A stretch of 64,000 nucleotides of DNA from Pseudomonas lini (GTDB lineage Bacteria > Pseudomonadota > Gammaproteobacteria > Pseudomonadales > Pseudomonadaceae), in the NCBI RefSeq assembly GCF_964063345.1, contig NZ_OZ061318.1, forward strand, positions 4,092,001-4,156,000, given 5' to 3'. The notes under the pieces were generated by a model. The model saw only the letters and a program-made list of their open reading frames with translations. It did no database searches and had not been told where the DNA came from. Made by a program: the position numbers and the translations under genes. Shown here in pieces: positions 6,304-25,780 of this stretch (position 1 is the first letter of the stretch; every line of letters starts with the position of its first letter).

Positions 6304-6471
6304 TTAGGCTTGCTTCGCCTCGGCCTGCATCATCACGAGGTTTTGTTGCTTGGTCGCCTCGGTCAGAACCTCACTGTAAACGCGCTTTTTTTGCTCCGAC
6401 TTCGCGTTACGAATAAAGTCGGCAAATGGGCTTTTAGCGCCCTTGGTAAGGCCTAGCTTAATCGAAATCAT
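6304..6471 (-). CDS. 55-residue protein translationally coupled to the zeta toxin
   Basis: A small ORF reading MISIKLGLTKGAKSPFADFI and ending NLVMMQAEAKQA, rich in lysine and helical. Its ATG overlaps the TGA of the zeta-toxin gene (ATGA), and a terminator follows directly, so the two are one transcript and probably translationally coupled. I do not recognise the family. By position it could be the antitoxin or a modulator of the kinase, although in the classical epsilon-zeta and PezAT pairs the antitoxin gene comes first. No DNA-binding motif is visible. Confidence 0.65.
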   Translation of the reverse strand: MISIKLGLTKGAKSPFADFIRNAKSEQKKRVYSEVLTEATKQQNLVMMQAEAKQA

Positions 6472-7226
6472 GAATGCGCTCCTGATGGTAACCCGAGCTC
6501 GGCCTCTAGATCGGCCCGCGTGTGGCGCTCAGGTATATGGTAGTCAATTTTATCGACACCAGCTTTGTAAAGTCGTCCCGAGTTGTCGATATGCTTGAGC
6601 AGTAGATCCACGTGGACATCGCCGCCGTACTCTAGCTTAAGTGTATTCACAACGTCACGCGCCGCGAAATACTGATCGATGAAATGCTCCTTGCGAATCC
6701 TTCTACCCTCTGCCTCCTCTCGAGCTTTGACAAAGCCCCATGCAAGATGAGGGTTCTGATAGACGTACAAGATTTGTACAAATCTGCCCTTTTTCAAGGA
6801 CCGTTCGACATTTCTTCTGGCTACATCGATGTTGGAGAATGTCCCGTCGAGAAGAAAAGACTGTCTCTGATCGATAGCAAAGTCGAGAATCTTTTCAACC
6901 AGGATCGAAACACCACCCTGAAAAAGCCAAGAGTTTCTACCCGAGTATTCAGAAAATTCGTTTCGAAGCTCGTCTGGATCAATCCTTAGAATCTTCGTGT
7001 CAGCGAAAAGGTTCACAAGCGCGATTGAGGCTTCAGTTTTACCTGCCCCTGGGGAGCCGGCCATAAACACTGACACGGGAGCTTCCTCTGGCGGATAAAT
7101 GGTTTTGTCAGTCCGGCGCTTGGCGATTGCTTTCTTGTGTGCGCGAGCGAAGCTGACTGCTTTAGCCGAAGTCTCTAGCTCTTCGGGTGTCATTACTTGC
7201 CTTGCTGGGGTTACCTCATTCGCCAC
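6468..7226 (-). CDS. Zeta toxin family kinase
   Basis: A 252-residue P-loop kinase of the zeta-toxin family. Members phosphorylate UDP-N-acetyl sugars or other small substrates. Visible elements are Walker A GSPGAGKT (about residues 57-64), the following RIDPDELRNEF stretch that carries the family's catalytic-type aspartate, and FLLDGTFSN, matching the zeta core. The start is GTG at 7226, with AAAGGAG seven bases upstream. No typical epsilon or PezA antitoxin gene is found upstream; instead a 55-residue ORF overlaps the 3' end. A tRNA-Thr-like 3' half lies between the ribosome binding site and the upstream region, a sign of past integration. The family is secure; toxicity is not shown. Confidence 0.82.
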   Translation of the reverse strand: MANEVTPARQVMTPEELETSAKAVSFARAHKKAIAKRRTDKTIYPPEEAPVSVFMAGSPGAGKTEASIALVNLFADTKILRIDPDELRNEFSEYSGRNSWLFQGGVSILVEKILDFAIDQRQSFLLDGTFSNIDVARRNVERSLKKGRFVQILYVYQNPHLAWGFVKAREEAEGRRIRKEHFIDQYFAARDVVNTLKLEYGGDVHVDLLLKHIDNSGRLYKAGVDKIDYHIPERHTRADLEAELGLPSGAHS

Positions 7227-7868: not shown

Positions 7869-10661
7869 ATGAATGCAGTAGAAATTGAGTCCGCTATTTC
7901 GGACCTGGCCCTTGAGCCCTTTGACGCGGTGGAATTTCCGTTTGTCTTCCTGGCCGCTTTTGGCAATAAGGAAACAGCCCTCAAACGCTTGCGTGCCGGC
8001 AACAACAACGCTTCCGACGTGCCTGGCGGCGTGCTACTGCGCAATAACATTCATATCGCCGCATGCGAATCTGGTAGCGTGGGCGAAACGCTCAAGGCAT
8101 TGCGCGCCAGCCCGGCTACCACAAAGGCCAAAGCAAAGTTCATCCTTGCCACAGACGGGCAAACGCTGGAGTCCGAAGAGCTCATTACGGGTGAAACCAT
8201 CGCCTGCGACTACCCGGACTTTCCCAACCATTTCGGCTTCTTGTTGCCCTTGGCCGGTATCTCCACCATTAAGGAGATCAAGGACAACCCCATCGACGTG
8301 CGCGCTACCAGCCGCCTGAACAAGCTATACGTCGAGTTGCTGAACGAGAACCCTGACTGGGCCAAGGACGAACGCCGCGCCGACATGAACCATTTTATGG
8401 CGCGGCTGGTGTTCTGCTTTTTTGCTGAAGATACCGACATTTTTAATGGCGATGGCCTGTTTACCAAAACGGTTGAGCAGTACACCGAACGCGATGGCTC
8501 CAACGCCCATCAGGTGCTGTCTGAAATTTTCCGCGCTATGAACATCAAGCTGGCCGAGCGAGCCACTGTTCAGCTTCGCTTGCCCAACTGGGCCAACAGC
8601 TTCCCCTACGTGAATGGCGGCCTGTTTTCAGGCAGTACCGAGGCACCGCGCTTCACACGCATGGCACGCACTTACTTGTTTCATGCCGGCAAACTGAACT
8701 GGAAAAAAATCAACCCAGACATATTCGGCAGCATGATCCAAGCCGTAGCCGATGATGAGGAGCGCGGCTCACTGGGCATGCACTACACCAGCGTGCCCAA
8801 CATCCTCAAGGTGCTGAATCCGCTGTTCCTTGATGACTTGCGTGCTCAGCTCGATGTGGCAGGAGACAACAAAGCCAAGCTGCTCAACCTCCGCAAACGT
8901 ATGGCGCGTATCCGCGTATTTGACCCAGCCTGCGGCTCCGGGAACTTCTTAGTCATCGCCTATAAGCAGATGCGCGAGATCGAGGCAGAGATCAATCGCC
9001 GCCGAGGCGAGGCCAACAACAGGTCTGAAATTCCGTTGACCAACTTTCGCGGCATAGAGTTGCGCGACTTTCCGGCAGAGATTGCCCGCTTGGCGCTGAT
9101 CATTGCCGAGTTCCAATGCGATGTGCTTTATCGCGGCCAGCAGGATGCTCTGGCGGAGTTTTTACCGCTGAATGCGCAGAACTGGATTGTTTGTGGCAAT
9201 GCGCTGCGAATAGATTGGTTGAGTGTCTGCCGGCCTACGGGTACGGCGGTCAAGATAATTGCGGATGACTTATTTGGCACGCCACTAAATCAGGCGGAAA
9301 TCGATTTCGAGAACGAAGGTGGCGAGACGTACATATGTGGTAATCCGCCTTATCTTGGTTCAACTTGGCAGACTGATGAGCAGAAGGCAGACTTGGAAGC
9401 CATCTTTGCCTCCCGCACAAAAAACTGGAAATCGCTAGACTATGTGGCGGGCTGGTTTATGAAAGCTGCCGACTATGGTATCAAAACCAAGGCAAAAGCT
9501 GCATTTGTATCTACCAACTCCATTTGTCAGGGGCAGCAAGTACCGATTCTCTGGCCGTTAATTTTTGCAAAAAACTACCAGATCGTATTTACATATACCT
9601 CATTTAAGTGGACAAATCTTGCAAGTCACAATGCAGGTGTGACCGTTGTAATTGTCTGTATTTCTAACGACTCTGAGAGGAGTCGGCGGATTTATTCGAC
9701 CAATAGCAATGGAGAGGTGGCGGTTAAAGATGTCGATAGAATCAATGCTTACTTGGTATCCGGCGCAGACGTCATAGTCGATAAACAGACGTACCCAGCC
9801 GATGAAAGAAGCCAGATGGATGCCGGTGGTAAGCCGGTCGAAGGTGGGAATTTGCTTTTCGCAGAGGAGGAAAAGCAAAGGCTAGTAGAAGGTAATGTGG
9901 ATGTAGTTAAATTTCTTAAGCGCGTATATGGTGCAAGTGAGTATATTCGAGGTGAAGTGCGTTTCTGCTTGTGGATTTCTGACAGCCAAGAGCAAGAGGC
10001 TAAGTCTAATAGTGACATCAATTGCAAATTAAATGCGGTTGCTGCTTTTCGACTAAAAAGCCCAAAGGCTGCCACTAAGAAAGGTGCTGCCTGGCCTCAC
10101 AAGTTTGAAGAGGTTAAACAAATAGGCAATGAAGTCGTAACGATTGTTCCGAAGGTTTCGTCGGAGTCCCGTGAATATCTTCCCGTAGGATTACTTCCCA
10201 GAGGCTCAATAGTCACAGACTTAGCCTTTGCTCTTTACGATGCACCTCTTTGGAATATGGCCCTTATCGCTTCCCGTTTGCACCTGGTTTGGATTGGTAC
10301 TGTTTGTGGCAAAATGAAAACAGACTTTCGCTACTCCAACACCCTCGGCTGGAATACCTTCCCGATCCCCCTGCTCACAGAGCAAAACAAGGCCGACCTA
10401 ACCGCCTGCGCCGAAAACATCCTGTTGGCCCGAGAGGCGCACTTCCCCGCCACCATTGCCGATCTGTACAACCCGGACAGCATGCCGGACAACCTACGCC
10501 GTGCCCACGAGCGCAACGATGAAGTGCTGGAGCGCATCTATATTGGCCGTCGCTTCAAGAACGACACCGAGCGGCTGGAAAAGCTGTTTGACCTCTACAC
10601 CAAGATGGCGGCAAACGCAGCGAAGGCCGCGCCGAAAAAGCCACGAGGGATAAAGGCATGA
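7869..10661 (+). CDS. MmeI-like class I DNA adenine methyltransferase without obvious nuclease motif
   Basis: A 930-residue N6-adenine DNA methyltransferase. It has a helical YTS element (GMHYTS, about residue 303), SAM-binding motif I FDPACGSGNF (about 351-360) and catalytic motif IV NPPY (492-495). The length and layout match the MmeI/type IIL fusion family: N-terminal region, helical spacer, methyltransferase, target-recognition domain, C-terminal helices. The N-terminal 150 residues show no clear D...ExK pair, so cleavage is probably supplied in trans by the nuclease encoded next. Bases about 9600-10330 (target-recognition part) are visibly richer in A+T than the rest. The stop overlaps the next start (ATGA). 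A role in self-marking for a defence system is an inference. Confidence 0.82.
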   Translation: MNAVEIESAISDLALEPFDAVEFPFVFLAAFGNKETALKRLRAGNNNASDVPGGVLLRNNIHIAACESGSVGETLKALRASPATTKAKAKFILATDGQTLESEELITGETIACDYPDFPNHFGFLLPLAGISTIKEIKDNPIDVRATSRLNKLYVELLNENPDWAKDERRADMNHFMARLVFCFFAEDTDIFNGDGLFTKTVEQYTERDGSNAHQVLSEIFRAMNIKLAERATVQLRLPNWANSFPYVNGGLFSGSTEAPRFTRMARTYLFHAGKLNWKKINPDIFGSMIQAVADDEERGSLGMHYTSVPNILKVLNPLFLDDLRAQLDVAGDNKAKLLNLRKRMARIRVFDPACGSGNFLVIAYKQMREIEAEINRRRGEANNRSEIPLTNFRGIELRDFPAEIARLALIIAEFQCDVLYRGQQDALAEFLPLNAQNWIVCGNALRIDWLSVCRPTGTAVKIIADDLFGTPLNQAEIDFENEGGETYICGNPPYLGSTWQTDEQKADLEAIFASRTKNWKSLDYVAGWFMKAADYGIKTKAKAAFVSTNSICQGQQVPILWPLIFAKNYQIVFTYTSFKWTNLASHNAGVTVVIVCISNDSERSRRIYSTNSNGEVAVKDVDRINAYLVSGADVIVDKQTYPADERSQMDAGGKPVEGGNLLFAEEEKQRLVEGNVDVVKFLKRVYGASEYIRGEVRFCLWISDSQEQEAKSNSDINCKLNAVAAFRLKSPKAATKKGAAWPHKFEEVKQIGNEVVTIVPKVSSESREYLPVGLLPRGSIVTDLAFALYDAPLWNMALIASRLHLVWIGTVCGKMKTDFRYSNTLGWNTFPIPLLTEQNKADLTACAENILLAREAHFPATIADLYNPDSMPDNLRRAHERNDEVLERIYIGRRFKNDTERLEKLFDLYTKMAANAAKAAPKKPRGIKA

Positions 10662-11719
10662 GCGACACCCCTGTTAGCCTGAGCATGCCACCCGAGGGCT
10701 ACGGCGACTGGCTGACCGACCTCAAAGGCCGCATCCATAATGCTCAGCAGCGCGCCACGCTGGCAGTGAACCGCGAACTGGTGCAGCTTTACTGGCAGAT
10801 CGGTCACGATATTTTGACCCGGCAAGCACAACAGGGCTGGGGTGCCAAGGTAATCGAGCGCTTGGCGCAGGATTTGCGCGCAGCCTTTCCCGATATGAAT
10901 GGGTTTTCGCCACGCAACCTCAAGTATATGCGTGCCTTTGCCGAGGCGTGGCCTGATGCGGAGTTTGTGCAACAGGCTGCTGCACAATTGCCTTGGGGTC
11001 ACAATTTGGTGCTGCTGGACAAGTTGCCCGGCCCGGAAACCCGCCGCTGGTATGCCGCCAAGGCCATCGAGCACAACTGGTCGCGCAACATTCTGGTGAT
11101 GCAGATCGAGGCCCGTCTGTTGGAGCGCAGTGGCAAGGCAGTCAGTAACTTCGAGAGCCATCTGCCCAAACCGCAGTCCGACCTGGCCCGCGAGTCGCTG
11201 AAAGATCCTTACCGCTTCGACTTCCTTGGCCTGACCTGTGATGCGCAGGAGCGTGAGATCGAAAACGCTCTAGTCAAGCATGTCACCGAGTTCCTGTTGG
11301 AACTCGGTGCAGGCTTTGCCTTCGTCGGTCAGCAAGTGCTGCTGGATGTGGGCGGTGACGAGTTTTTTATCGACCTACTGTTCTATCACCTCAAGCTACG
11401 CTGCTATGTGGTGATCGAACTCAAGGCCGGCAAGTTCAAGCCCGAGCACCTGGGCCAGTTGAGTTTTTACCTCACTGCAGTGGATGCCCAGCTCAAGCAC
11501 CCACAGGACGGCCCCACCATCGGTCTGCTGCTGTGCAAGAGCAAGAACAAGGTAGTGGCCGAATACGCCCTGCGTGATAACGCCCGCCCCATCGGTGTGG
11601 CCGAATACCAATTGGTGGAGTCCCTGCCGGCAGAGCTGCAAACCAGCCTGCCCAGCATCGAACAGATCGAGCGCGAACTGGCAAGTGATGACGCATCCAT
11701 GGACGATGACTCGCAATGA
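10658..11719 (+). CDS. YhcG/DUF1016-family PD-(D/E)xK nuclease
   Basis: A 353-residue protein with an N-terminal DUF1016 helical domain (residues 10-170; RELVQLYWQIGHDIL and GFSPRNLKYMRAFA are typical) and a C-terminal PD-(D/E)xK nuclease fold. Here FIDLLFYH carries the metal-binding aspartate (about D239), and YVVIELKAGKF carries the E-x-K pair (E254-K256). YhcG proteins are predicted Holliday-junction-resolvase-like nucleases often encoded in restriction-modification loci. The gene overlaps its neighbours at both ends (ATGA), so it is probably made in step with the methyltransferase and helicase. It is the best candidate for the DNA-cutting subunit of the cluster. Confidence 0.85.
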   Translation: MSDTPVSLSMPPEGYGDWLTDLKGRIHNAQQRATLAVNRELVQLYWQIGHDILTRQAQQGWGAKVIERLAQDLRAAFPDMNGFSPRNLKYMRAFAEAWPDAEFVQQAAAQLPWGHNLVLLDKLPGPETRRWYAAKAIEHNWSRNILVMQIEARLLERSGKAVSNFESHLPKPQSDLARESLKDPYRFDFLGLTCDAQEREIENALVKHVTEFLLELGAGFAFVGQQVLLDVGGDEFFIDLLFYHLKLRCYVVIELKAGKFKPEHLGQLSFYLTAVDAQLKHPQDGPTIGLLLCKSKNKVVAEYALRDNARPIGVAEYQLVESLPAELQTSLPSIEQIERELASDDASMDDDSQ

Positions 11720-13881
11720 ACGAACAGAACCACAACCCAACCAACTCTTACACGGTGCCATCGGTATCCATCACCACGGCGCACACTGGGGCTTCCAGCA
11801 AAGCCAATGAGTTGGGTATGCGTACCATGCAGGAACGCGCCTATACCAAGCGCGGCGAACAGTACCTACTGATCAAGTCGCCCCCCGCATCAGGCAAGTC
11901 CCGCGCCCTGATGTTTATCGCGCTGGATAAGCTGCATAACCAGGGCTTGCAACAGGCAATTGTCGTGGTGCCGGAGCGCTCCATTGGCGGCAGCTTCGCC
12001 GATGAGCCGCTGAGCAAGTTTGGTTTTTACTGGGACTGGCAAGTGGCTCCACAGTGGAACCTATGCAATGCTCCTGGCATCGATGAGCCGCGTGTGGCCA
12101 AATCCAAGGTGGAATCCGTACGCGCTTTCCTGAAAAGCGCCGACAAGACACTGGTCTGCACCCATGCCACCTTCCGCTTTGCCGTGGAAGAGCTAGGTAT
12201 CGAAGCCTTCGACAATCGCCTGATTGCCATCGACGAATTTCACCACGTTTCAGCCAACCCGGACAACAAGTTGGGCGGCCAGCTAAGCGCGTTTATCGGC
12301 CGCGATAAAGTGCATTTGGTGGCCATGACTGGCTCTTATTTCCGTGGCGACAGCGAGGCCGTGCTGGCCCCGGCGGAAGAAGCCAGGTTTGAGACGGTGA
12401 CTTACACTTACTACGAGCAGCTTAACGGCTACCGCTGGCTCAAGTCGCTGGATATCGGCTACTTCTTCTACACCGGCAAGTATGTGGATGCCGTCGCCAA
12501 GGTGCTGGACCCAGTGCTGAAAACCATCATCCATATCCCTAATGTGAATGCCCGCGAAAGCCTCAAAGACAAGGAGCGCGAGGTCAACGAAATCATGAGT
12601 GCGCTGGGCGATTGGCAGGGTGTCGACCCGGCCACCGGCTTCCACCTCATCAAAGCCAAGGACGGTCGCACGCTGAAAGTGGCCGACCTGGTGGATGACA
12701 GCGACGCGACCAGACGCTCCAAAGTGCTCGGCGCGCTGAAAGACCCGGCGCAGAAGAACAACCGCGACCACGTGGATGTGATCATCGCATTGGGTATGGC
12801 GAAGGAAGGCTTTGACTGGATCTGGTGTGAACATGCACTGACCATTGGCTACCGCAGCAGCCTGACCGAAATTGTGCAGATCATTGGCCGTGCAACGCGT
12901 GATGCCGAGGGTAAGGAGCGCTCACGCTTCACCAACCTGATCGCAGAGCCCGCAGCCGATCAAGCCGCTGTTGCTGAGGCGGTGAACGATATGCTCAAGG
13001 CCATTTCCGCCAGCTTGCTGATGGAACAGGTGTTAGCCCCGCGCTATGAGTTCACCCCGAAAGATACAGGACCGAAAGAGGGTTTCACTTATGGGCCTGA
13101 TGGTTATCAACCAGGCGGCACCAACTTGGGTGTAAATGAAACCACAGGCCAGTACCATGTCGAGATAAAGGGGCTGATCACGCCGCAAAGCGCAGAGGCT
13201 ACGCGCATCTGCAAGGAAGATTTGAACGAAGTGGTGACCAACTTCCTGCAGGACAAAACCGTGCTGGAACGCGGCCTTTTCGACAAGGAAAATACACTGC
13301 CCGAAGAGCTGACCCAATTGCGCATGGGCAAGATCGTACGTGAGCGTTACCCAGACTTGAGCGACGTCGATCAGGAAGCCATCCGCCAGCACGCCATCGC
13401 CGCCATGAACATTACTCAGCAGGCCAAGTTGGCCTTGGGCCAGGCCGATGTAAACGGTGGCGACGCAGTGCAGGGCAGTACGGCGCTGTTGGATGGTGTG
13501 CGTAAGTTCGTTAACGTGCGCGAGCTGGACATTGATTTAATCGATCGCATCAATCCCTTCGATGCCGCCTATGCTGTGCTGGCGAAAGCGATGGATGAAA
13601 GATCCCTGCGTCAAGTCCAAGCCAGCATTTCTGCCAAGAAGGTTAGCATCCCGGAAGACGAAGCACGCGACCTGGCGAAGCGTGCGTTGCAGTTCAAGAA
13701 CGAGCGTGGTCGCTTGCCAGACATTAATTCCGCTGACGGCTGGGAAAAGCGCATGGCCGAAGGTGTAGCTGCTTTAACACGTTATCGTGCTCAGGCATTA
13801 GCAGGCCAAAAGGGGCTACCAATACCTAAAGAAACACCAACTATGCCAAAAGTAGCAGCGCCTAAAAAGACGGAAAAATAG
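11716..13881 (+). CDS. DEAD/DEAH-type SF2 helicase
   Basis: A 721-residue superfamily 2 helicase. Walker A PPASGKS (about 56-62), motif II DEFH (173-176), motif III-like MTGSY, motif V ALGMAKEGFDW and motif VI QIIGRATRD (about 388-396) are in order, so the ATPase core lies within the first 410 residues. The C-terminal 300 residues are unassigned, contain a helical FKNERGRLPDINS segment and end in a lysine/proline-rich tail. It resembles the translocase parts of type I and type III restriction enzymes but carries no nuclease motif of its own. It is translationally coupled to the YhcG nuclease gene, suggesting a complex that moves on DNA and cuts. Confidence 0.85.
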   Translation: MNEQNHNPTNSYTVPSVSITTAHTGASSKANELGMRTMQERAYTKRGEQYLLIKSPPASGKSRALMFIALDKLHNQGLQQAIVVVPERSIGGSFADEPLSKFGFYWDWQVAPQWNLCNAPGIDEPRVAKSKVESVRAFLKSADKTLVCTHATFRFAVEELGIEAFDNRLIAIDEFHHVSANPDNKLGGQLSAFIGRDKVHLVAMTGSYFRGDSEAVLAPAEEARFETVTYTYYEQLNGYRWLKSLDIGYFFYTGKYVDAVAKVLDPVLKTIIHIPNVNARESLKDKEREVNEIMSALGDWQGVDPATGFHLIKAKDGRTLKVADLVDDSDATRRSKVLGALKDPAQKNNRDHVDVIIALGMAKEGFDWIWCEHALTIGYRSSLTEIVQIIGRATRDAEGKERSRFTNLIAEPAADQAAVAEAVNDMLKAISASLLMEQVLAPRYEFTPKDTGPKEGFTYGPDGYQPGGTNLGVNETTGQYHVEIKGLITPQSAEATRICKEDLNEVVTNFLQDKTVLERGLFDKENTLPEELTQLRMGKIVRERYPDLSDVDQEAIRQHAIAAMNITQQAKLALGQADVNGGDAVQGSTALLDGVRKFVNVRELDIDLIDRINPFDAAYAVLAKAMDERSLRQVQASISAKKVSIPEDEARDLAKRALQFKNERGRLPDINSADGWEKRMAEGVAALTRYRAQALAGQKGLPIPKETPTMPKVAAPKKTEK

Positions 13882-13956
13882 CCGAGCAGAAAAGCTTATT
13901 AGCGACTTGTTTCAGCTTGATTGGTTTTATTAATGTCGGTGTCGGGGATGTAAAGG

Positions 13957-14514
13957 ATGGCGCAAGAGCGATTTTGGAAAGAACTTCATGAATTGAAGTT
14001 CAATATTGGTTTCGTTCAGCGGCTCTTGCTTGAAGCTGAGGCAAAAGAGCGCCTCATTAAAGCAGTCATAGCAATAACTTCTAGCGCAAGTATCGGTGCT
14101 TGGGTTGTCTGGAAAGAACTGGCTGTGCTCTGGGGTGCTATTATCGCAGGCTCACAGGTGCTCTCAGTCATCTACCCTTTACTCCCCTACGCGGATCGTC
14201 TCAAAACGTTTTCGTTGATGCTTAAAGATCTTGAACTTTTATTTATTGAGGCTGAGCATAAGTGGCAATCTGTTGCGGACGGAAGCATGTACGCTCAGAA
14301 AATAGATAGTGAACGCACACTGCTGCACAAACAGAAGAGCAATATTTTAAATAAGTATATGCCTACCAGCATTTTTCCGGAGAACCCTAGGTTTGCTGAC
14401 CGGGCTGAGCAGGATGCGGCAAACTACTTCTCTCGCTACTACCCTGAAGAGTATGAACCCTCCAAATCGTTCGGCACCACAAAAGAAGCCGCTAAAGATG
14501 GAGCGCTAACATGA
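13957..14514 (+). CDS. Small two-helix membrane protein (SLATT-like)
   Basis: A 185-residue protein. A charged amphipathic N-terminus (WKELHELKFNIGFVQRLLLE) is followed by two adjacent membrane helices (about residues 35-53 and 57-75), then a long soluble helical tail. This layout resembles SLATT-domain proteins, pore-forming effectors linked to nucleotide-sensing defence systems, but I cannot confirm the family by sequence alone. It sits between the helicase and the GIY-YIG gene, 75 bases after the helicase stop, and overlaps the GIY-YIG start (ATGA). Its reduced G+C content compared with its neighbours suggests a separate origin. Confidence 0.65.
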   Translation: MAQERFWKELHELKFNIGFVQRLLLEAEAKERLIKAVIAITSSASIGAWVVWKELAVLWGAIIAGSQVLSVIYPLLPYADRLKTFSLMLKDLELLFIEAEHKWQSVADGSMYAQKIDSERTLLHKQKSNILNKYMPTSIFPENPRFADRAEQDAANYFSRYYPEEYEPSKSFGTTKEAAKDGALT

Positions 14515-15677
14515 ATGATGACGACCTACTGGATGCTCTAGGGGTAGAGGTTCCCTCTCTCAAAACAGTCACTCGAACCCCTCGTGAAGAACGCATCATC
14601 GCTGGTTTCGAGGACATTCTGCGCTTTTATCAGACCCACGGTCACGCGCCACTGCATGGTGAAGACCGTGATGTTTTCGAGCGTTTGTACGCCGTACGCC
14701 TGGATCAGCTGCGCAAATTACCGGAAGCGCAAATACTACTGGCTGAGCTGGATGGCCCCGATCTACTGACCGGGACCGTAACGCTGGATGTGAATGACCT
14801 AGATGAGGACGCCTTGCTGGCCGAGCTGGGTATTGGCGGTGAACCCGCAGGCCAGGACGACATCACCGTGCTTCGTCATGTACGCTCCAGCACTGAAAAA
14901 CGTGCAGCTGAGGAAATCGCCGACCGTACGCCATGTGCGGATTTTGACAGGTTTCAACCACTGTTCGAGCTGGCTGAAAGGGATCTGAAATCTGAAGTTC
15001 GCAAAACCTTGCGCTTTGGTCGCGATGCCAGCATTGAATCGGGGAACTACTTCATCGTCGGCGGGCAGTTGGCCTACGTGGCGGAAATCGGCGAAACCAT
15101 CAAGGCGCCCAATGGCGAAAGCGATGCACGCCTGCGTGTCATCTACGCCAACGGAACGGAAAGCAACTTGTTGCGTCGTTCGCTCCAACGGGCGCTTTAC
15201 AAAGATGAAACCGGTCGGCGAGTAACCGATCCGGACATGGGACCGTTGTTTGGCAATGCTTCAGAGCCAGACGATATTGAAAACGGGACAATTTATGTGC
15301 TGCGCAGCCTGTCTAGCCACCCATTTGTCGCCGAGCACCGCGAGCTGATCCACAAGATCGGCGTGACCGGCGGCAAAGTGGAGACACGCATTGCTAACGC
15401 GCAAAAAGATGCGACCTATCTGCTGGCCGACGTGGAGGTTGTCGCCACCTACAAGCTGCATAACCTGAACCGCACCAGGCTAGAAAACATCTTCCACCGT
15501 CTGTTCGGTGGGGCTCAGCTCGACTTAACCATCGAAGATCGCTTCGGCCATCCGGTCAAGCCCAGGGAGTGGTTTTTAGTACCTCTCCATGTAATTGACG
15601 AAGCGGTTGAGCGCATTCGGGATGGGTCGGTTACCGACGTGGTCTATGATCCCCACTCGGCTCGCCTCGTCAGCTAA
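14511..15677 (+). CDS. GIY-YIG nuclease family protein (T5orf172-like)
   Basis: A 388-residue protein. The N-terminal part carries EERIIAGFEDILRFYQTHGH and HGEDRDVFERLYAVRLDQLR, a module I associate with GIY-YIG proteins of restriction loci. The C-terminal part (about 255-380) has the GIY-YIG fold: GTIYVLRSL as the first strand, IHKIGVTGGKVETRI as the second with its conserved arginine-type residue, and ENIFHRLFGGAQLDL with the family's helix. This is the variant seen in T5orf172/MUG113-like proteins. It is the last gene of the cluster and overlaps the membrane-protein gene by ATGA. A 382-base gap separates it from qatA. Confidence 0.78.
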   Translation: MNDDDLLDALGVEVPSLKTVTRTPREERIIAGFEDILRFYQTHGHAPLHGEDRDVFERLYAVRLDQLRKLPEAQILLAELDGPDLLTGTVTLDVNDLDEDALLAELGIGGEPAGQDDITVLRHVRSSTEKRAAEEIADRTPCADFDRFQPLFELAERDLKSEVRKTLRFGRDASIESGNYFIVGGQLAYVAEIGETIKAPNGESDARLRVIYANGTESNLLRRSLQRALYKDETGRRVTDPDMGPLFGNASEPDDIENGTIYVLRSLSSHPFVAEHRELIHKIGVTGGKVETRIANAQKDATYLLADVEVVATYKLHNLNRTRLENIFHRLFGGAQLDLTIEDRFGHPVKPREWFLVPLHVIDEAVERIRDGSVTDVVYDPHSARLVS

Positions 15678-16059: not shown

Positions 16060-17856
16060 ATGTGGGCTGATGTCGATACAAAAAACGATTTTCTGAATTA
16101 CTCAGAAGTGGCCGATCTTGTTGTGGACGTCATCCGTGATCCGTCCATGCGTCCGGTTACCGTAGGCGTGTTCGGTTCCTGGGGTACTGGGAAGTCCACG
16201 CTGCTCAATCTGATCGAGCATGGACTGAACCCTCCTCAGGGAGCGTCTGAATTCGTCGTCGTTCGTTTTGACGCCTGGTTGTATCAGGGCTTCGATGACT
16301 CCCGCGCCGCGCTGATGGAGGTCATCGCCTCCACCCTTATCGACGCTGCCAAAGAAACCAGCTTTCTACCTGAAGCGAAGAAGCTTTTTGCGCGGGCCAA
16401 CAAAATGCGAATGCTTGGTCTCATGGTCGAAGGTGGAGCGCTTGCTTTGGGTATGCCTGCTTTCGGTTTTGGTGCGAAAGGGGTGGAAGCTCTGGGGAAG
16501 CTCTTTTCCGGTGAAGCGGATCATGACTCGTTAGGAACTCTCAAAGATGAAGGTGGTAAAGCGAAGGACAGCTTTACCGGGCTGCTTGGCCCAGAAAAGC
16601 AGCAAACTCCCCCCCAACAGATCGAGGCGTTCCGAAAGGAGTTCTCAGATGTCCTCATTGGTCTCGACAAAACGTTGGTCGTTTTTGTCGACAACTTAGA
16701 TCGCTGCTTGCCCAAGCAGACGATCCATACCTTGGAGGCTTTGCGTCTATTCCTCTTCATGAACCATACGGCTTTTGTCGTGGCGGCAGATGAGGAGATG
16801 GTTCGCCATTCGGTCAGTGAGCATTTCAAAGATCCTGGTGATCGTCATGTGACTGATTACTTGGACAAACTTATTCAAGTGCCTGTTCGTGTGCCAAGGT
16901 TGGGCGTTCAGGAGGTTCGGGCGTACCTATTCATGCTGTTTGCCTCGGCCGGTAACAAGGTCCCTGGCGAGCGCATCGAGGCCTTGAGAATCGGGCTTGA
17001 AGATAACTTGCGCAAGGCATGGAGAGACGAGCCCATCAGCACAGAGAGGGCCTTAGAGTTGCTGGGCTCGAATGTGCCAGTGGAAGTTGCCGAAGCTTTT
17101 CCGATTGCTGATCGAATTGCGCCAATGCTCGCAAGCTCCAGCTCCGTGTTGGGTAACCCCAGAATCGTGAAGCGTATGCTCAACGTCGTTCGAATGAGGG
17201 TACGGGTAGCGGCACTGCGTGAAATGCCTGTAAACGAGGCCCTAATCGCCAAGGTAGCTCTTTTTGAGCGTTGCATGGAGGAGAAAGCGGTCGCCCATCT
17301 TTACTCGATGATAAATGGTGCTGCCGGTGGCAAACCTGAAGTGCTGGCCGAACTGGAGGGACTACTGGAAGATCCCGTGAAATTTGCGGAGGCTTGTCCG
17401 GATTTATGGACCAAAGTAGACCTCGTGCGAGATTGGATCAGGCTCGAACCGCAGCTTTCGACTGTAGACCTTCGTCCGGTCGTTTATCTGAGCAGGGAAA
17501 CCACTCCCTTACGGGTATTGCGCGCAGGTCTTTCTGCTGATGCGGCCGAAGCGCTTGCTGTGCTCAAACGGACGTCCAACACCTCGTCACCTTCTGCAAA
17601 AGCTGCTCTACAGACCATATCCGGTGGTGAGCACGCGGCCGTCATGATCCAGTTAATTGAATCGATGCGGTCGCATTCTGAGTGGACAAGCAAGCCAGTC
17701 GGCTTCGACGGTGCGCAGTTGCTTGCCGAGAAGTCACCAGAAGCCGGTGCGCTGCTATCGGACTTCATTCACACCGTAATGCCGGACAAAATTCGGCCTT
17801 GGCTCAGCAGCAAGCTTAAGGGCGCGAGCTGGTACAAGGAGCGGGAGAAGAAGTAA
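16060..17856 (+). CDS. qatA: Qat system ATPase QatA (KAP family P-loop NTPase)
   Basis: A 598-residue KAP-family ATPase. Walker A GSWGTGKS is at residues 39-46, the KAP-typical VVVRFDAWLYQGFDD follows, and Walker B VVFVDNLDRCLP is at about 206-217. The ATG has AAGGAGG six bases upstream. KAP ATPases are the first component of the QatABCD anti-phage system, named for QueC-like, ATPase and TatD proteins; the identification rests on this fold plus the order of the next two genes. The downstream gene starts within the TAATG junction, so the qat genes are co-translated. Confidence 0.88.
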   Translation: MWADVDTKNDFLNYSEVADLVVDVIRDPSMRPVTVGVFGSWGTGKSTLLNLIEHGLNPPQGASEFVVVRFDAWLYQGFDDSRAALMEVIASTLIDAAKETSFLPEAKKLFARANKMRMLGLMVEGGALALGMPAFGFGAKGVEALGKLFSGEADHDSLGTLKDEGGKAKDSFTGLLGPEKQQTPPQQIEAFRKEFSDVLIGLDKTLVVFVDNLDRCLPKQTIHTLEALRLFLFMNHTAFVVAADEEMVRHSVSEHFKDPGDRHVTDYLDKLIQVPVRVPRLGVQEVRAYLFMLFASAGNKVPGERIEALRIGLEDNLRKAWRDEPISTERALELLGSNVPVEVAEAFPIADRIAPMLASSSSVLGNPRIVKRMLNVVRMRVRVAALREMPVNEALIAKVALFERCMEEKAVAHLYSMINGAAGGKPEVLAELEGLLEDPVKFAEACPDLWTKVDLVRDWIRLEPQLSTVDLRPVVYLSRETTPLRVLRAGLSADAAEALAVLKRTSNTSSPSAKAALQTISGGEHAAVMIQLIESMRSHSEWTSKPVGFDGAQLLAEKSPEAGALLSDFIHTVMPDKIRPWLSSKLKGASWYKEREKK

Positions 17857-18608
17857 TGGGAACCTCTACGTCAAGCAAAGGGCCTGGGGGTAATTCTCCA
17901 TTTGTGCCTGGGTGGGTGGACACCGATGGGCAGCAGGTACCCGAGGCTCCTCCGCAGCGATTTAAAGACTTCCGCACAAATCTGGGGAGATTCGTCTCGA
18001 CAGGAGACGGCGATTACCTTCGCTCTGCGATAAGCAGCTATGCAGGCGGTGCAACCGGTGGCAGTGGCATTGGACCTGCCCGGTTTGGCTCCATGGCCGG
18101 AGCCGGGGGAGCCTTATTTGGTGCGATGGCCACATTGAGGGAAGGGCATTCCCCTCTGGGGCTGGATCTCGCTGCGTTGAACGGCCAGGACACGGACATT
18201 GCTATCGACATGATCGTGCAGGCGCTTGCCACTGAGGACGGCGATTCTGATCGCGTTCGGGTTGCGATGAACGAGGCGCTCTCTGAATGCCTAGAGGGTT
18301 ACCAAGAGTTCGATTTCGCGAGCATCACTGACGAGATGCTTGTACAGATGATGCTGGTGTACGTCACCAAATGCGTGTTTGGACAAGTGGTGCTCGATTC
18401 GAACGATGCGTTCGCAAAAGCTGAATCACCTGGCCAAGTCGAGCAGGCCGAGAAGGAACTGTACTCTCTCGTTGAATCGGTGACCGACAAGCACATGCGT
18501 TCCTTGTTGGGAGGCAGTCTGAAAGCGCTCTCCAGCACTCAAATTGAAAAGATTCAGATGGCCGCCATCCGCGAAGTGTGGAGTGAATGGGAGGCATACC
18601 AAGAGTGA
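17856..18608 (+). CDS. qatB: Qat system protein QatB
   Basis: A 250-residue protein of no known catalytic fold. It has a disordered glycine/proline-rich N-terminus (residues 1-35), then RFKDFRTNLGRFVSTGDGDY, a glycine-rich SSYAGGATGGSGIGPARFGS stretch and a helical remainder. This is the pattern of the QatB protein encoded between the KAP ATPase and the QueC-like gene in Qat loci; its biochemical role is unknown. Its ATG overlaps the qatA stop (TAATG) and its stop overlaps the probable GTG start of qatC. Confidence 0.8.
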   Translation: MGTSTSSKGPGGNSPFVPGWVDTDGQQVPEAPPQRFKDFRTNLGRFVSTGDGDYLRSAISSYAGGATGGSGIGPARFGSMAGAGGALFGAMATLREGHSPLGLDLAALNGQDTDIAIDMIVQALATEDGDSDRVRVAMNEALSECLEGYQEFDFASITDEMLVQMMLVYVTKCVFGQVVLDSNDAFAKAESPGQVEQAEKELYSLVESVTDKHMRSLLGGSLKALSSTQIEKIQMAAIREVWSEWEAYQE

Positions 18609-19915
18609 CAGACCTCATTTTCCATCACGAAGCTGATCAGCTTCGCTCGCAAACGGCTAATGAAATTCCCGTACTGATGTACGGCAGTCGCCCACCGGCG
18701 CGGGGCACTTGCTCTATAGGGGGGCCGGTTCGCGCCGCAGTGAGGCGTTTGGGGGCTCCGGTCAGTAGAACCGGGTTCGATTTGTTGACCATAGCCATGG
18801 CCGTAACAGCCGCAGATACTTTTGTTGATAAAGCAGAAGCTGATGATGGTTGGGCCCGGGACCTTCGCTTATTCATCCCCATCGCTGATCCGCAACTTTG
18901 GCAGCCCGCGATACCGCTTTTACAGAAGGCTCTGCATTTCTTAAGCGGCGATCTTTGGGAGATCATCCTATTGCCTGATGGACCCAGACAGCTCACGTCT
19001 CAGAACCGTGGTCGCATCACCGTTATGGCCGGCCACGATTGCGTCAGTTTGTTCTCGGGGGGGATGGATAGCGGCATTGGAGCGTTGAATTTATTAGCAG
19101 AGGGCAGGCGCCCATTGTTGATAAGTCATGCATATCGAGGTGACTCGGAAAAGCAAATCATGGTTCGGGATCATCTACCGGTGGAGGTCTCAAGATTCGC
19201 TGCGGTGGCAAATCCGGTGTCCTTGACTGGGAGAAAAACCGATGTGCAGATGCGCACTCGAAGCTTCAATTTCCTCGCCTATGGTGCACTGGTTGGGGCC
19301 ACACTGGCGCAGCTACGAGTCACTGGCACACCAGTAGAACTTTTCGTTCCCGAGAACGGGCTCATTGCGCTGAACCCTCCAATGACTGCTCGCCGCATTG
19401 GCGCGTTGAGTACTAGGACGACGCACCCACATTTTTTGGGCCTATTCCAAAAAATCCTGGATACGGTCGGCCTGCCTGTACGAGTCGAGAATCCGTACGC
19501 GCTTCAGACGAAGGGAGAGATGCTTTCTGGGTGCTTAGATCAAGCGAACTTGAGGGTCCTGGCATCGGAAACGGTATCGTGTGGTAAGTGGAAGCGGACA
19601 CACCGGCAGTGTGGTAAGTGCGTCCCGTGCGTCATCCGACGCGCCTCGTTCCACGCTGCCGGAATGACGGACGGCACCGCGTACCATGCCAGAGGAGCGG
19701 ATCTGACTTCAGTAATTCGGGATGCGAATGCCAGAGATGATTTGATGGCCATGATCCTGGCGGCCCGCAGATTGCCTGCAGAAGATGTCGCGAAATGGGT
19801 GCGTCAATCCGGCCCGCTTCCACTCCAACGCCAGTCTCGTGATTGTTTAATAGGCGTGGCCACTAGAGGCATGGGAGAGGTCAGAAACTATCTATGGTCT
19901 CTCGGTCTGCTCTGA
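18605..19915 (+). CDS. qatC: QueC-like protein QatC of the Qat system
   Basis: A 436-residue protein of the QueC/PP-loop type. The ATP-pyrophosphatase motif SGGMDS is at residues 151-156, and a zinc-type cysteine cluster follows (C326, C336, C339, C342), as in QueC 7-cyano-7-deazaguanine synthase. In Qat the protein is thought to modify a target using related chemistry, not to make queuosine. The start is set at GTG 18605, which overlaps the qatB stop (GTGA) and has GGGAGG upstream; an ATG at 18587 would add six residues. The qatD (TatD-like DNase) gene that normally follows is missing: a convergent gene overlaps the last 28 bases. Confidence 0.85.
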   Translation: MTDLIFHHEADQLRSQTANEIPVLMYGSRPPARGTCSIGGPVRAAVRRLGAPVSRTGFDLLTIAMAVTAADTFVDKAEADDGWARDLRLFIPIADPQLWQPAIPLLQKALHFLSGDLWEIILLPDGPRQLTSQNRGRITVMAGHDCVSLFSGGMDSGIGALNLLAEGRRPLLISHAYRGDSEKQIMVRDHLPVEVSRFAAVANPVSLTGRKTDVQMRTRSFNFLAYGALVGATLAQLRVTGTPVELFVPENGLIALNPPMTARRIGALSTRTTHPHFLGLFQKILDTVGLPVRVENPYALQTKGEMLSGCLDQANLRVLASETVSCGKWKRTHRQCGKCVPCVIRRASFHAAGMTDGTAYHARGADLTSVIRDANARDDLMAMILAARRLPAEDVAKWVRQSGPLPLQRQSRDCLIGVATRGMGEVRNYLWSLGLL

Positions 19916-23942: not shown

Positions 23943-25217
23943 TCACCGTATCGGCACGACGTTGTGATTCCTGGTGTCATTGATGGCCGCTACCGACAGG
24001 TTGCCAGTGGCCGCTTTCTGGATGTGCTCACTCCACCAAGCCATCATCGGACGGCGGCGTTCGATGTAGTCAGCTCGGTTGTAAGCGCTTCGGACTTCGT
24101 CCTTGTCGACATGCGCCAGCGCGACTTCGATTAGCTCCGGATCCCACCCATGCTCGTTCAGGATGGTGCTGGCCATGGAGCGCATGCCGTGGCTGACCAA
24201 GCGGTCCTGGAAGCCCATGCGTTTCAACGCCATGTTGGCGGTCTGGCTATTGGCGTGGGTGCGCGGGTTTCTATCTGCCGGGAACACGTATTCCCTGTGG
24301 CCGCTGTGGGGTTTGAGCGCCTCCAGTAACGCGAGTGCCTGTTCGGTCAGCGGGATGGTGTGCGGACGACGCTTTTTCATACGCTCCGGCGGGATGGTCC
24401 AGATGCGTTTGTCGAAGTCGATGTCTGCCCAGCGGGTGGTGGCCGCTTCGGCAGGACGGGTCATGGTGTGCAGTTGCCATTCGATCAGGCAGCGGGTGAT
24501 CCGCTTGATGCTGGCGTTCGCAATTTCGATCATGAGCTCGGAAAGCTCATCGGGTCGTAGCGCGGCCATGTTCTGTTTTTTGGGCTTCTTGAATACCGCC
24601 CGAATGCCACTGAGGGGGTTAGCGAAAATCAACCCGGAGTTCACCCCGTAGGTCATGATCTCGTTGAGCCGTTGGCTCAGTCGCTTCACTGTCTCGAGAC
24701 TGCCTTTGGCCTCAATCGGGCGAAGCAGTTCTATGACCATCGGTGCGGTAATTTTCGAGAGCGGCGTTGTTTTCAGGTCTGGGAATACGTGCAGCGTGAG
24801 CGATCGCCAAATGTCTTCGGCGTACGCCGGCGTGACGGAGTCCTTCTTCAGCTCGAACCAGGCGGTGGCCACGTTCTCGAATGTATGTTCCGTCTCCGCT
24901 CGTTTGGCTTCGTCCTGTGCATTGCGTTGCACCTTGGGATCAATGCCTTGTGCAAGCAGCTCGCGTGCTTCCACCACTTTCTTCCTGGCGTTCGCTAGCG
25001 AGAGCTCTGGGTATGTGCCCAGCCCCATATTGATACGATTTTTGGTTACCGGCTCGCGGTAGTTGAAGTTCCACAGCATCGAGCCATTGCTCCTGACTCG
25101 GAGCTGAAGGCCGTCACCATCGCTGAGGACGTAATCCTTGTCTTTTGCCTTGACTGCCTTGAGCTGGCGGTCGGAAAGGCGAAGGGCTAGAGCGGGCATG
25201 AGAGCTACCTCTGACAC
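23943..25217 (-). CDS. P4-type integrase (tyrosine recombinase) of the ssrA island
   Basis: A 424-residue integrase. It has the N-terminal DUF4102/arm-binding domain (LSDRQLKAVKAKDKDYVLSD; LGTYPELSLANARKKV) and the C-terminal catalytic domain with arginine in MTRPAEAATTRW, the HGMR box in LVSHGMRSMAST, the following histidine in VALAHVDKDEVRSAY, and the tyrosine region AYNRADYIERR. It is the integrase class that uses tRNA and tmRNA 3' ends. It lies 170 bases from ssrA and is transcribed in the same direction as ssrA, away from it. TTGGAATACC-type repeats upstream are probable arm sites. It should be able to excise the island, provided the divergent left site is still recognised. Confidence 0.9.
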   Translation of the reverse strand: MSEVALMPALALRLSDRQLKAVKAKDKDYVLSDGDGLQLRVRSNGSMLWNFNYREPVTKNRINMGLGTYPELSLANARKKVVEARELLAQGIDPKVQRNAQDEAKRAETEHTFENVATAWFELKKDSVTPAYAEDIWRSLTLHVFPDLKTTPLSKITAPMVIELLRPIEAKGSLETVKRLSQRLNEIMTYGVNSGLIFANPLSGIRAVFKKPKKQNMAALRPDELSELMIEIANASIKRITRCLIEWQLHTMTRPAEAATTRWADIDFDKRIWTIPPERMKKRRPHTIPLTEQALALLEALKPHSGHREYVFPADRNPRTHANSQTANMALKRMGFQDRLVSHGMRSMASTILNEHGWDPELIEVALAHVDKDEVRSAYNRADYIERRRPMMAWWSEHIQKAATGNLSVAAINDTRNHNVVPIR

Positions 25218-25386: not shown

Positions 25387-25780
25387 TGGTGGAGCCGGGG
25401 GGATTTGAACCCCCGTCCGCCAGTACTCCGCTGTCGGTACTACATGCGTAGCCGTGTCTATTAAGTTAACCCTCAGCGACCCGACGGGCAGGGTGCTTTG
25501 GGCGAGTTGTGTAAGTTTTAGCCGCTTCGTCCACAACGTACTGCACGGCGATTCTGTTCTATATGACAATCACTTTGGGTTTACAGACATCCCCTGATGA
25601 TTGCTGGACCCGAAGGTACCAGGAGGGAAGGGCTAAGGCTGCTTACGCAGCGAGAGCGTATTCCCCGTAGGTTTCGTCATTGGCAACTATAGAAAGTTGC
25701 AACAGTGGATTTACGAGTTCTGTTACCAACTCGGCATGCACCTAAAGTTTCGCAACCGGCGTCGAATCCTAAACGGCCCC
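25387..25780 (-). ncRNA. ssrA: tmRNA
   Basis: A 394-nucleotide tmRNA. The 5' end GGGGCCGTTTAGGATTCGAC and the 3' end GGCTCCACCA (with the TTCAAAT T loop) form the tRNA-like domain. The tag frame at 25643-25684 encodes ANDETYGEYALAA followed by TAA, the tag type of Pseudomonas. It rescues stalled ribosomes together with SmpB, encoded 10 kb away at 35652-36134. Its 3' end is the island attachment site and remains intact. Confidence 0.97.

Follow-up and report, generated by a model that had tools for sequence, protein, structure and literature searches.

A probable split, type I-like restriction–modification cluster of the DnmA–YeeB–YeeC kind with two cargo slots in Pseudomonas lini

We analysed five co-oriented genes in a stretch of Pseudomonas lini DNA of 64,000 nucleotides (nt) (NZ_OZ061318.1, positions 4,092,001–4,156,000; hereafter the window, within which coordinates are counted). 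An initial annotation of this sequence had presented the five as a candidate undescribed defence system. We find that three of them, encoding an adenine methyltransferase (methylase), a superfamily 2 (SF2) helicase and a GIY-YIG protein, match the published DnmA–YeeB–YeeC cluster in domains and gene order (PMC7261158, PMC9973331), and that the five genes together do not form a conserved system. The other two, encoding a YhcG nuclease and a two-helix membrane protein, occupy slots between these core genes. The whole is probably a split, type I-like restriction–modification (RM) system of the DnmA–YeeB–YeeC kind with two cargo slots. Its parts are as follows.

7869..10661, plus strand: gene 1, DnmA/MmeI-like adenine methyltransferase with its own target-recognition domain; the N-terminal nuclease motif is missing
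10658..11719, plus strand: gene 2, YhcG/DUF1016 PD-(D/E)xK nuclease, optional cargo of slot 1
11716..13881, plus strand: gene 3, YeeB-like SF2 helicase/translocase without a recognised nuclease domain
13797..14504, plus strand: inserted cassette (slot 2), consisting of a new helicase C-terminal tail, a 75-nt gap and the membrane-protein gene; its edges are BLAST alignment edges
13957..14514, plus strand: gene 4, two-helix membrane protein of 185 amino acids, candidate membrane effector
14511..15677, plus strand: gene 5, YeeC-like T5orf172/GIY-YIG protein, core part, likely nuclease

All five open reading frames (ORFs) are intact and lie on the plus strand exactly where the initial annotation had placed them. 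The three ATGA overlaps to which it had drawn attention are present in the window sequence at 10658, 11716 and 14511; at the fourth junction, the helicase stop codon (13879–13881) and the start of the membrane-protein gene (13957) do not overlap.

Profile searches also bore out the gene types that had been read from the sequence. Gene 1 has all five Pfam MmeI domains (MmeI_N, MmeI_hel, MmeI_Mtase, MmeI_TRD and MmeI_C) and also matches N6_Mtase, a family that it has in common with HsdM. PADLOC names it type IIG, with 948.6 bits to the REase_MTase_IIG model PDLC03598 against 90.5 to DrmMI, and it matches the MmeI structure 5hr4 in the PDB with an E value of 2.3e-138. The methylase motifs that had been singled out hold up, as DPACGSGNF and NPP are invariant across an alignment of 74 methylases. 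Gene 2 matches DUF1016_N and YhcG_C in Pfam and the PADLOC single-gene candidate PDC-S02 (model PDLC04831, E value 2.9e-171), and its proposed active-site residues D239, E254 and K256 are invariant in all 14 aligned copies. Gene 3 reaches the Pfam families DEAD and ResIII just under their cut-offs; its predicted model has an SF2 core fold over residues 29–502 and no nuclease domain was recognised in it, as first described. Gene 5 matches MUG113 and T5orf172, and gene 4 has two hydrophobic stretches, at residues ~33–51 and ~55–73. In PADLOC-DB 2.0.0, no model matches genes 4 or 5, and gene 3 has only weak partial matches to PbeA.

We scanned species genomes with the helicase and compared the best 80 of at least 579 loci, a sample biased to helicases ~70% or more identical, counting a gene as present when it gave a phmmer match of more than 100 bits with the protein of the window. 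Methylase, helicase and GIY-YIG protein are all present in 73 of the 80 loci, on one strand and in one order in every case. Five incomplete loci are truncated close to the end of a contig (L036, L043, L055, L079 and L095). The helicase and GIY-YIG frames abut or overlap in 72 of the 73 complete loci, the exception being L071, in which the GIY-YIG gene is in two pieces; in the window, the cassette parts gene 3 from gene 5. The GIY-YIG protein, which the initial annotation had assigned to a second effector layer, is thus a core part of the cluster.

The two accessory genes behave differently from the core. YhcG is found in 8 of the 73 complete loci and the membrane gene in none, so the refuting condition set in the initial annotation applies to gene 4, which is not kept alongside the first three genes. 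In Pseudomonas sp. BP8 (L056), the same stretch, including qatABC, occurs at ~94% DNA identity and the cassette with its membrane gene is absent; one relative (L178, genome G365) has neither accessory gene, and another (L104) has the membrane gene without YhcG. A new defence system that requires every one of the five genes would account for the three ATGA overlaps and the single strand, but against these distributions it is very improbable.

The methylase lacks the nuclease motif of its helicase-free relatives. Residues 1–200 of gene 1 contain no D-x(7-14)-(E/D)xK string. Among 194 relatives, 16 of which have the helicase, we located 27 MmeI_N places and aligned 22, having dropped five weak ones without a profile match. 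The N-terminal D-x9-ExK motif is absent in all 16 that adjoin the helicase and is kept in all four helicase-free relatives, as DLY(K/R)R(G/D)(S/C)FVLE(A/G)K in frames of 1152–1174 amino acids. Two further places are fragments (in genomes G096 and G009) that also lack it. Other D...(E/D)xK strings occur in 3 of the 16 helicase-adjacent methylases; we take these to be chance because they align away from the motif position, at window residues 69–106.

The residues that would be needed in the other two chains are retained. In the helicase, the Walker A, DEFH and QIIGRATR-region residues are invariant in a 98-row alignment, a few rows of which come from overlapping copies. In the GIY-YIG protein, G259, Y262, K282-I283-G284 and R293 are present in 92 of 92 rows and E325 in 91 of 91; we take these residues to be catalytic. 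Because the methylase motif is lost beside the helicase and active-site-type residues are invariant in the helicase and GIY-YIG protein, we infer that cleavage may have moved from the methylase to the GIY-YIG chain. The earlier proposal of a split RM machine therefore stands in so far as methylation, motor and, putatively, cleavage are on separate chains; its choice of YhcG as the cleaving enzyme is unlikely to be right, given 8 occurrences in 73 loci.

These features match those of the dnmA(yeeA)–yeeB–yeeC genes. These encode an MmeI-like methylase without a restriction endonuclease (REase) motif, an SF2 helicase and a C-terminal T5orf172 protein, their order is conserved across species, and they are proposed to form a type I-like RM system; the Bacillus subtilis DnmA makes N6-methyladenine at GACGAG, and deletion of the dnmA or yeeB homologues of Vibrio crassostreae raised sensitivity to some phages (PMC7261158, PMC9973331). 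The window has the same three kinds of protein in the same order, and differs in having YhcG in the methylase–helicase slot, a membrane cassette in the helicase–GIY-YIG slot and a replaced helicase tail. An Acetobacter plasmid record likewise shows three consecutive genes, for a methylase, a helicase annotated as YeeB (65.5% identity to gene 3) and a GIY-YIG protein.

With type I RM systems the cluster shares recognition and methylation alongside an SF2 motor, the N6_Mtase family of gene 1 and HsdM, and a slot before the motor gene that takes cargo, including YhcG relatives and RhuM. Unlike them, it has methylase and specificity on one chain, a motor without a recognised nuclease domain and a putative nuclease on a separate GIY-YIG chain; HsdM_N, Methylase_S and HSDR_N have no Pfam match in genes 1–5. 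MmeI-type IIL/IIG enzymes have the same five domains as gene 1, whereas the window methylase lacks the N-terminal D-x9-ExK and is accompanied by a helicase and a GIY-YIG protein. No BREX or DISARM partner genes are among the PADLOC and NCBIfam matches listed for ten proteins between 7869 and 22912 (for YhcG, 25 of its 30 matches).

We hypothesize that gene 1 would recognise an asymmetric DNA site, at which it would methylate adenine in the DNA of the host. Where incoming DNA has unmethylated sites, it would form a complex with the gene 3 SF2 motor and load it; the motor would then translocate, and the gene 5 GIY-YIG protein would cleave or nick. The slot between methylase and motor (slot 1) takes an optional second nuclease, here YhcG, and that between motor and GIY-YIG protein (slot 2) a membrane-protein cassette that replaces the last part of the motor's C terminus. 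The membrane protein would act once the motor engages foreign DNA.

Slot 1 has varied contents. Besides the 8 complete loci with YhcG, 28 have a methylase–helicase spacing of at least 300 bases, with a co-oriented ORF in all except L052 and L097, and 37 have a spacing of less than 300 bases and no YhcG match above 100 bits, some of these with a YhcG remnant (L020 and L058). We scanned ten slot-1 ORFs, picked to differ (one from the set of 194 relatives rather than the 80 loci). Pfam matches were found in five: RhuM, AlbA_2 with HATPase_c_4 (twice), GmrSD_N and PDDEXK_4; the other five had none. Because it is optional, YhcG is unlikely to be the core cleaver of the cluster. The alignments of L020 and L004 to the window both skip 10748–11697, so the two loci share an internal YhcG deletion with identical endpoints, and L058 retains a similar short piece. 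In another locus (L184, 6394–8066; genome G145), slot 1 holds a Fic-like_C protein as well as YhcG.

YhcG also occurs elsewhere, with matches of all strengths in 60 of 144 relatives. We examined 15 of its neighbourhoods from a much longer list, mainly the closest outside YeeB loci. Six resemble type I operons (L144, L146, L147, L149, L150 and L153; YhcG 40–73% identical), and in five of these YhcG lies directly before the motor gene, the place that it occupies before gene 3 in the window. Pfam confirmed HsdM, HsdS and HsdR in L149, HsdR in L147, HsdM, HsdS and a RhuM-Fic protein in L153, and an AAA_13 protein in L144; the remaining type I-like assignments, including L146 and L150 entirely, were made by motifs and lengths. 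From these comparisons, YhcG appears as cargo common to YeeB-type and type I operons, a reading that calls for caution because some copies, two of them in the type I loci, have an in-frame stop (G040, G083 and G022). Insertion of cargo between hsdS and hsdR has been described before (PMC11411939, PMC12255303, PMC3710099).

Slot 2 contains the rarer insert. Gene 4 was found in 1 of 398 Pseudomonas genomes and 2 of 369 Gammaproteobacteria, with the window's own genome counted in both. The second carrier, a distant genome (G734, locus L104), has methylase, helicase, membrane gene and GIY-YIG gene in order and no YhcG. In the window, the cassette spans ~708 bp (13797–14504) and also replaces the helicase C terminus, of which residues ~694 to 721 come from it. 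Homology to nine distinct cassette-free Pseudomonas loci, judged from BLAST edges, ends at 13790–13804 and restarts at 14505 in eight of the nine; in L004 it restarts at 14570. The helicase tail of the cassette, KGLPxPxxTPxMPKVxxPKK, is confined to the window and L104 among the helicase tails compared. Because the cassette replaces the C-terminal end of the motor, the new motor tail and the membrane protein move together. Our literature search found no description of such an arrangement, and this cassette, in which the membrane-protein gene comes with a helicase tail, is a new part of the cluster.

Comparison with BP8 indicates how the cassette may have arrived. Identity drops toward it, to 0.76–0.89 in the late helicase and 0.65–0.83 over much the greater part of the GIY-YIG gene, before rising again. 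The synonymous divergence (dS) climbs from 0.09 in the methylase to 1.19 in the GIY-YIG gene, with 0.15 in qatA. From this pattern, it looks as if one recombination tract brought the cassette and the GIY-YIG allele together. The cassette also seems to move or be lost independently, since L178 has a GIY-YIG protein 87% identical and no cassette, and the two cassette loci are separated from each other in trees.

Gene 4 itself has no Pfam or PADLOC match. Its AlphaFold2 model is all-helical (predicted local distance difference test score, pLDDT, 83.4), and its family in the protein database comprises 44 proteins including itself. It resembles the SLATT and CBASS two-transmembrane (2TM) effectors in having two membrane helices with helical flanks, and a few relatives match their models: 2 of the 44 match SLATT_4 (best E value 1.3e-4) and 4 of the 44 the PADLOC 2TM Effector model. 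The window's own gene 4, in contrast, matches neither, and a direct hhalign profile comparison with one SLATT_4 group gave a probability of 0.7%, a value exceeded by at least 8 of 100 shuffles. Kinship with these effectors is therefore only suggested; because the weak matches are confined to relatives and the direct profile comparison was negative, we call gene 4 a candidate membrane effector and not a SLATT protein. A separate SLATT-domain protein is encoded elsewhere in the same genome (G000, C1:5433877-5434074; L156).

More distantly related gene 4 proteins are encoded in a phage contig (41% identity) and by two plasmids (~29%), and a tblastn search with the core proteins of the window found no cluster in the examined stretches of any of these. 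In the phage contig (L103, 8001–8495), the relative stands alone, on the strand opposite most large neighbouring ORFs, some of which look by eye like recombination genes; it could be a phage-borne immunity gene.

These free-standing occurrences bear on whether the operon is one system or several. The genes could instead represent three independent defences, a DnmA–YeeB–YeeC cluster, a lone YhcG nuclease and a lone membrane protein, which would agree with the gene 4 relatives outside any detected cluster, with the 9 of 15 YhcG neighbourhoods that are not within a co-oriented type I or YeeB operon (in L141, a separate gene with an NPPY motif lies on the opposite strand) and with the single-gene status of PDC-S02. 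There is also precedent. TgvAB or DarTG2 in type I loci, and Hma-embedded genes, are defence genes between the core genes of another system (PMC11411939, PMC12255303), and TgvAB is reported to act without HsdR, though alone it protects less than the whole cluster against several phages (PMC11411939). In the window, however, the host operon is of the DnmA–YeeB–YeeC kind, and one of the inserts has in addition given a core protein a new end. The cassette brings its own helicase C terminus in both carrier loci, for which a free-standing gene would have no need, and we regard three independent defences as somewhat unlikely.

If the cassette tail instead couples the motor to the membrane protein, unmethylated DNA would trigger both cutting and membrane opening or breakage, ending in cell suicide. 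We put this plug-in effector forward tentatively, as an unlikely elaboration; were it true, slot 2 would give the system a further cargo site, one of which our literature search found no description, with a docking tail arriving alongside the cargo. Of the second effector layer that had been proposed, what survives is a rare membrane cassette that occupies the same slot in one distant genome; the GIY-YIG protein is not part of it. The window and BP8 form a natural pair with and without the cassette at ~94% DNA identity, and the role of the cassette is therefore directly testable.

Several observations weigh against a working split RM system of the DnmA–YeeB–YeeC kind. The strongest is the negative work on B. 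subtilis: single deletions of dnmA, yeeB or yeeC left predation by three phages unchanged, deletion of dnmA left plasmid uptake unchanged, and the authors called the locus a nonfunctional relic (PMC7261158, PMC9973331). The link to that trio is made through domains, gene order and the one YeeB-annotated record at 65.5%, and in the literature accessible to us we found no demonstrated cleavage by any DnmA–YeeB–YeeC member. The gene 3 model is a generic SF2 core, for which EcoR124I HsdR is among the Foldseek matches and is not singled out. Two loci are short of a core gene for which no contig end accounts. In L089, the 10 kb upstream of a helicase–GIY-YIG pair contain no related methylase; this locus may use another methylase. 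L041, cut on the methylase side, retains only the first 24 GIY-YIG residues.

Decay of this sort would be expected if gene 1 were an orphan methylase that mainly methylates the host for gene regulation, with helicase and GIY-YIG protein as leftovers of a restriction arm, as proposed for B. subtilis. The negative B. subtilis tests speak for this reading as well. Besides L041, a natural deletion of the cluster middle in genome G096 (L179, 9468–10225) joins the start of the methylase directly to the end of the GIY-YIG gene. In the window, by contrast, each of the five reading frames is open, and neither the 98 helicase rows nor the 92 GIY-YIG rows show any variation at the active-site residues. 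Between the window and BP8, the ratio of nonsynonymous to synonymous divergence (dN/dS) is 0.05–0.12 for genes 1, 2, 3 and 5, with 0.10 for the helicase and 0.12 for the GIY-YIG gene, in which dS is near saturation. Matches to the helicase occur in 264 plasmid records, 152 of them over at least 80% of its length. We consider an orphan methylase with a decayed restriction arm improbable for this locus.

The cluster has further mobile and defence-associated neighbours, as follows.

16060..19915, plus strand: qatA, qatB and qatC, neighbours outside the system, matched by PADLOC QatA, QatB and QatC
23943..25217, minus strand: tyrosine integrase, likely the island integrase (Pfam Phage_integrase and Arm-DNA-bind_3)
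25387–25780, minus strand: ssrA transfer-messenger RNA (tmRNA), from ARAGORN

Qat systems normally have a fourth gene, QatD. The proximity to Qat that had been described holds for QatA, QatB and QatC by PADLOC (only QatC passes the NCBIfam cut-off); as for QatD, no plus-strand ORF longer than 139 amino acids lies behind qatC up to 21600, a region in which no QatD profile was run, and none was seen behind qatC in BP8 to the end of the examined piece. An ssrA island, also proposed, is plausible, as tmRNA and integrase adjoin. Its edge is not established, because the 3′ end of ssrA has no exact repeat of at least 14 bp elsewhere in the window. In BP8, ~3 kb between the GIY-YIG gene and qatA (13950–16493 of L056) contain a transposase-like ORF, IS66-like by eye, and are missing from the window; a tRNA-Pro lies near the start of the matching stretch, whereas the window has ssrA on the other side. 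Upstream of the cluster, a zeta-toxin-like protein is encoded on the minus strand (6468–7226).

DnmA–YeeB–YeeC loci are widespread; one published case looks defunct and another affects phage sensitivity. The comparison presented here defines the core of these loci (methylase, motor and GIY-YIG protein), the probable new site of cleavage and the presence of cargo beside the motor gene, as in type I operons.

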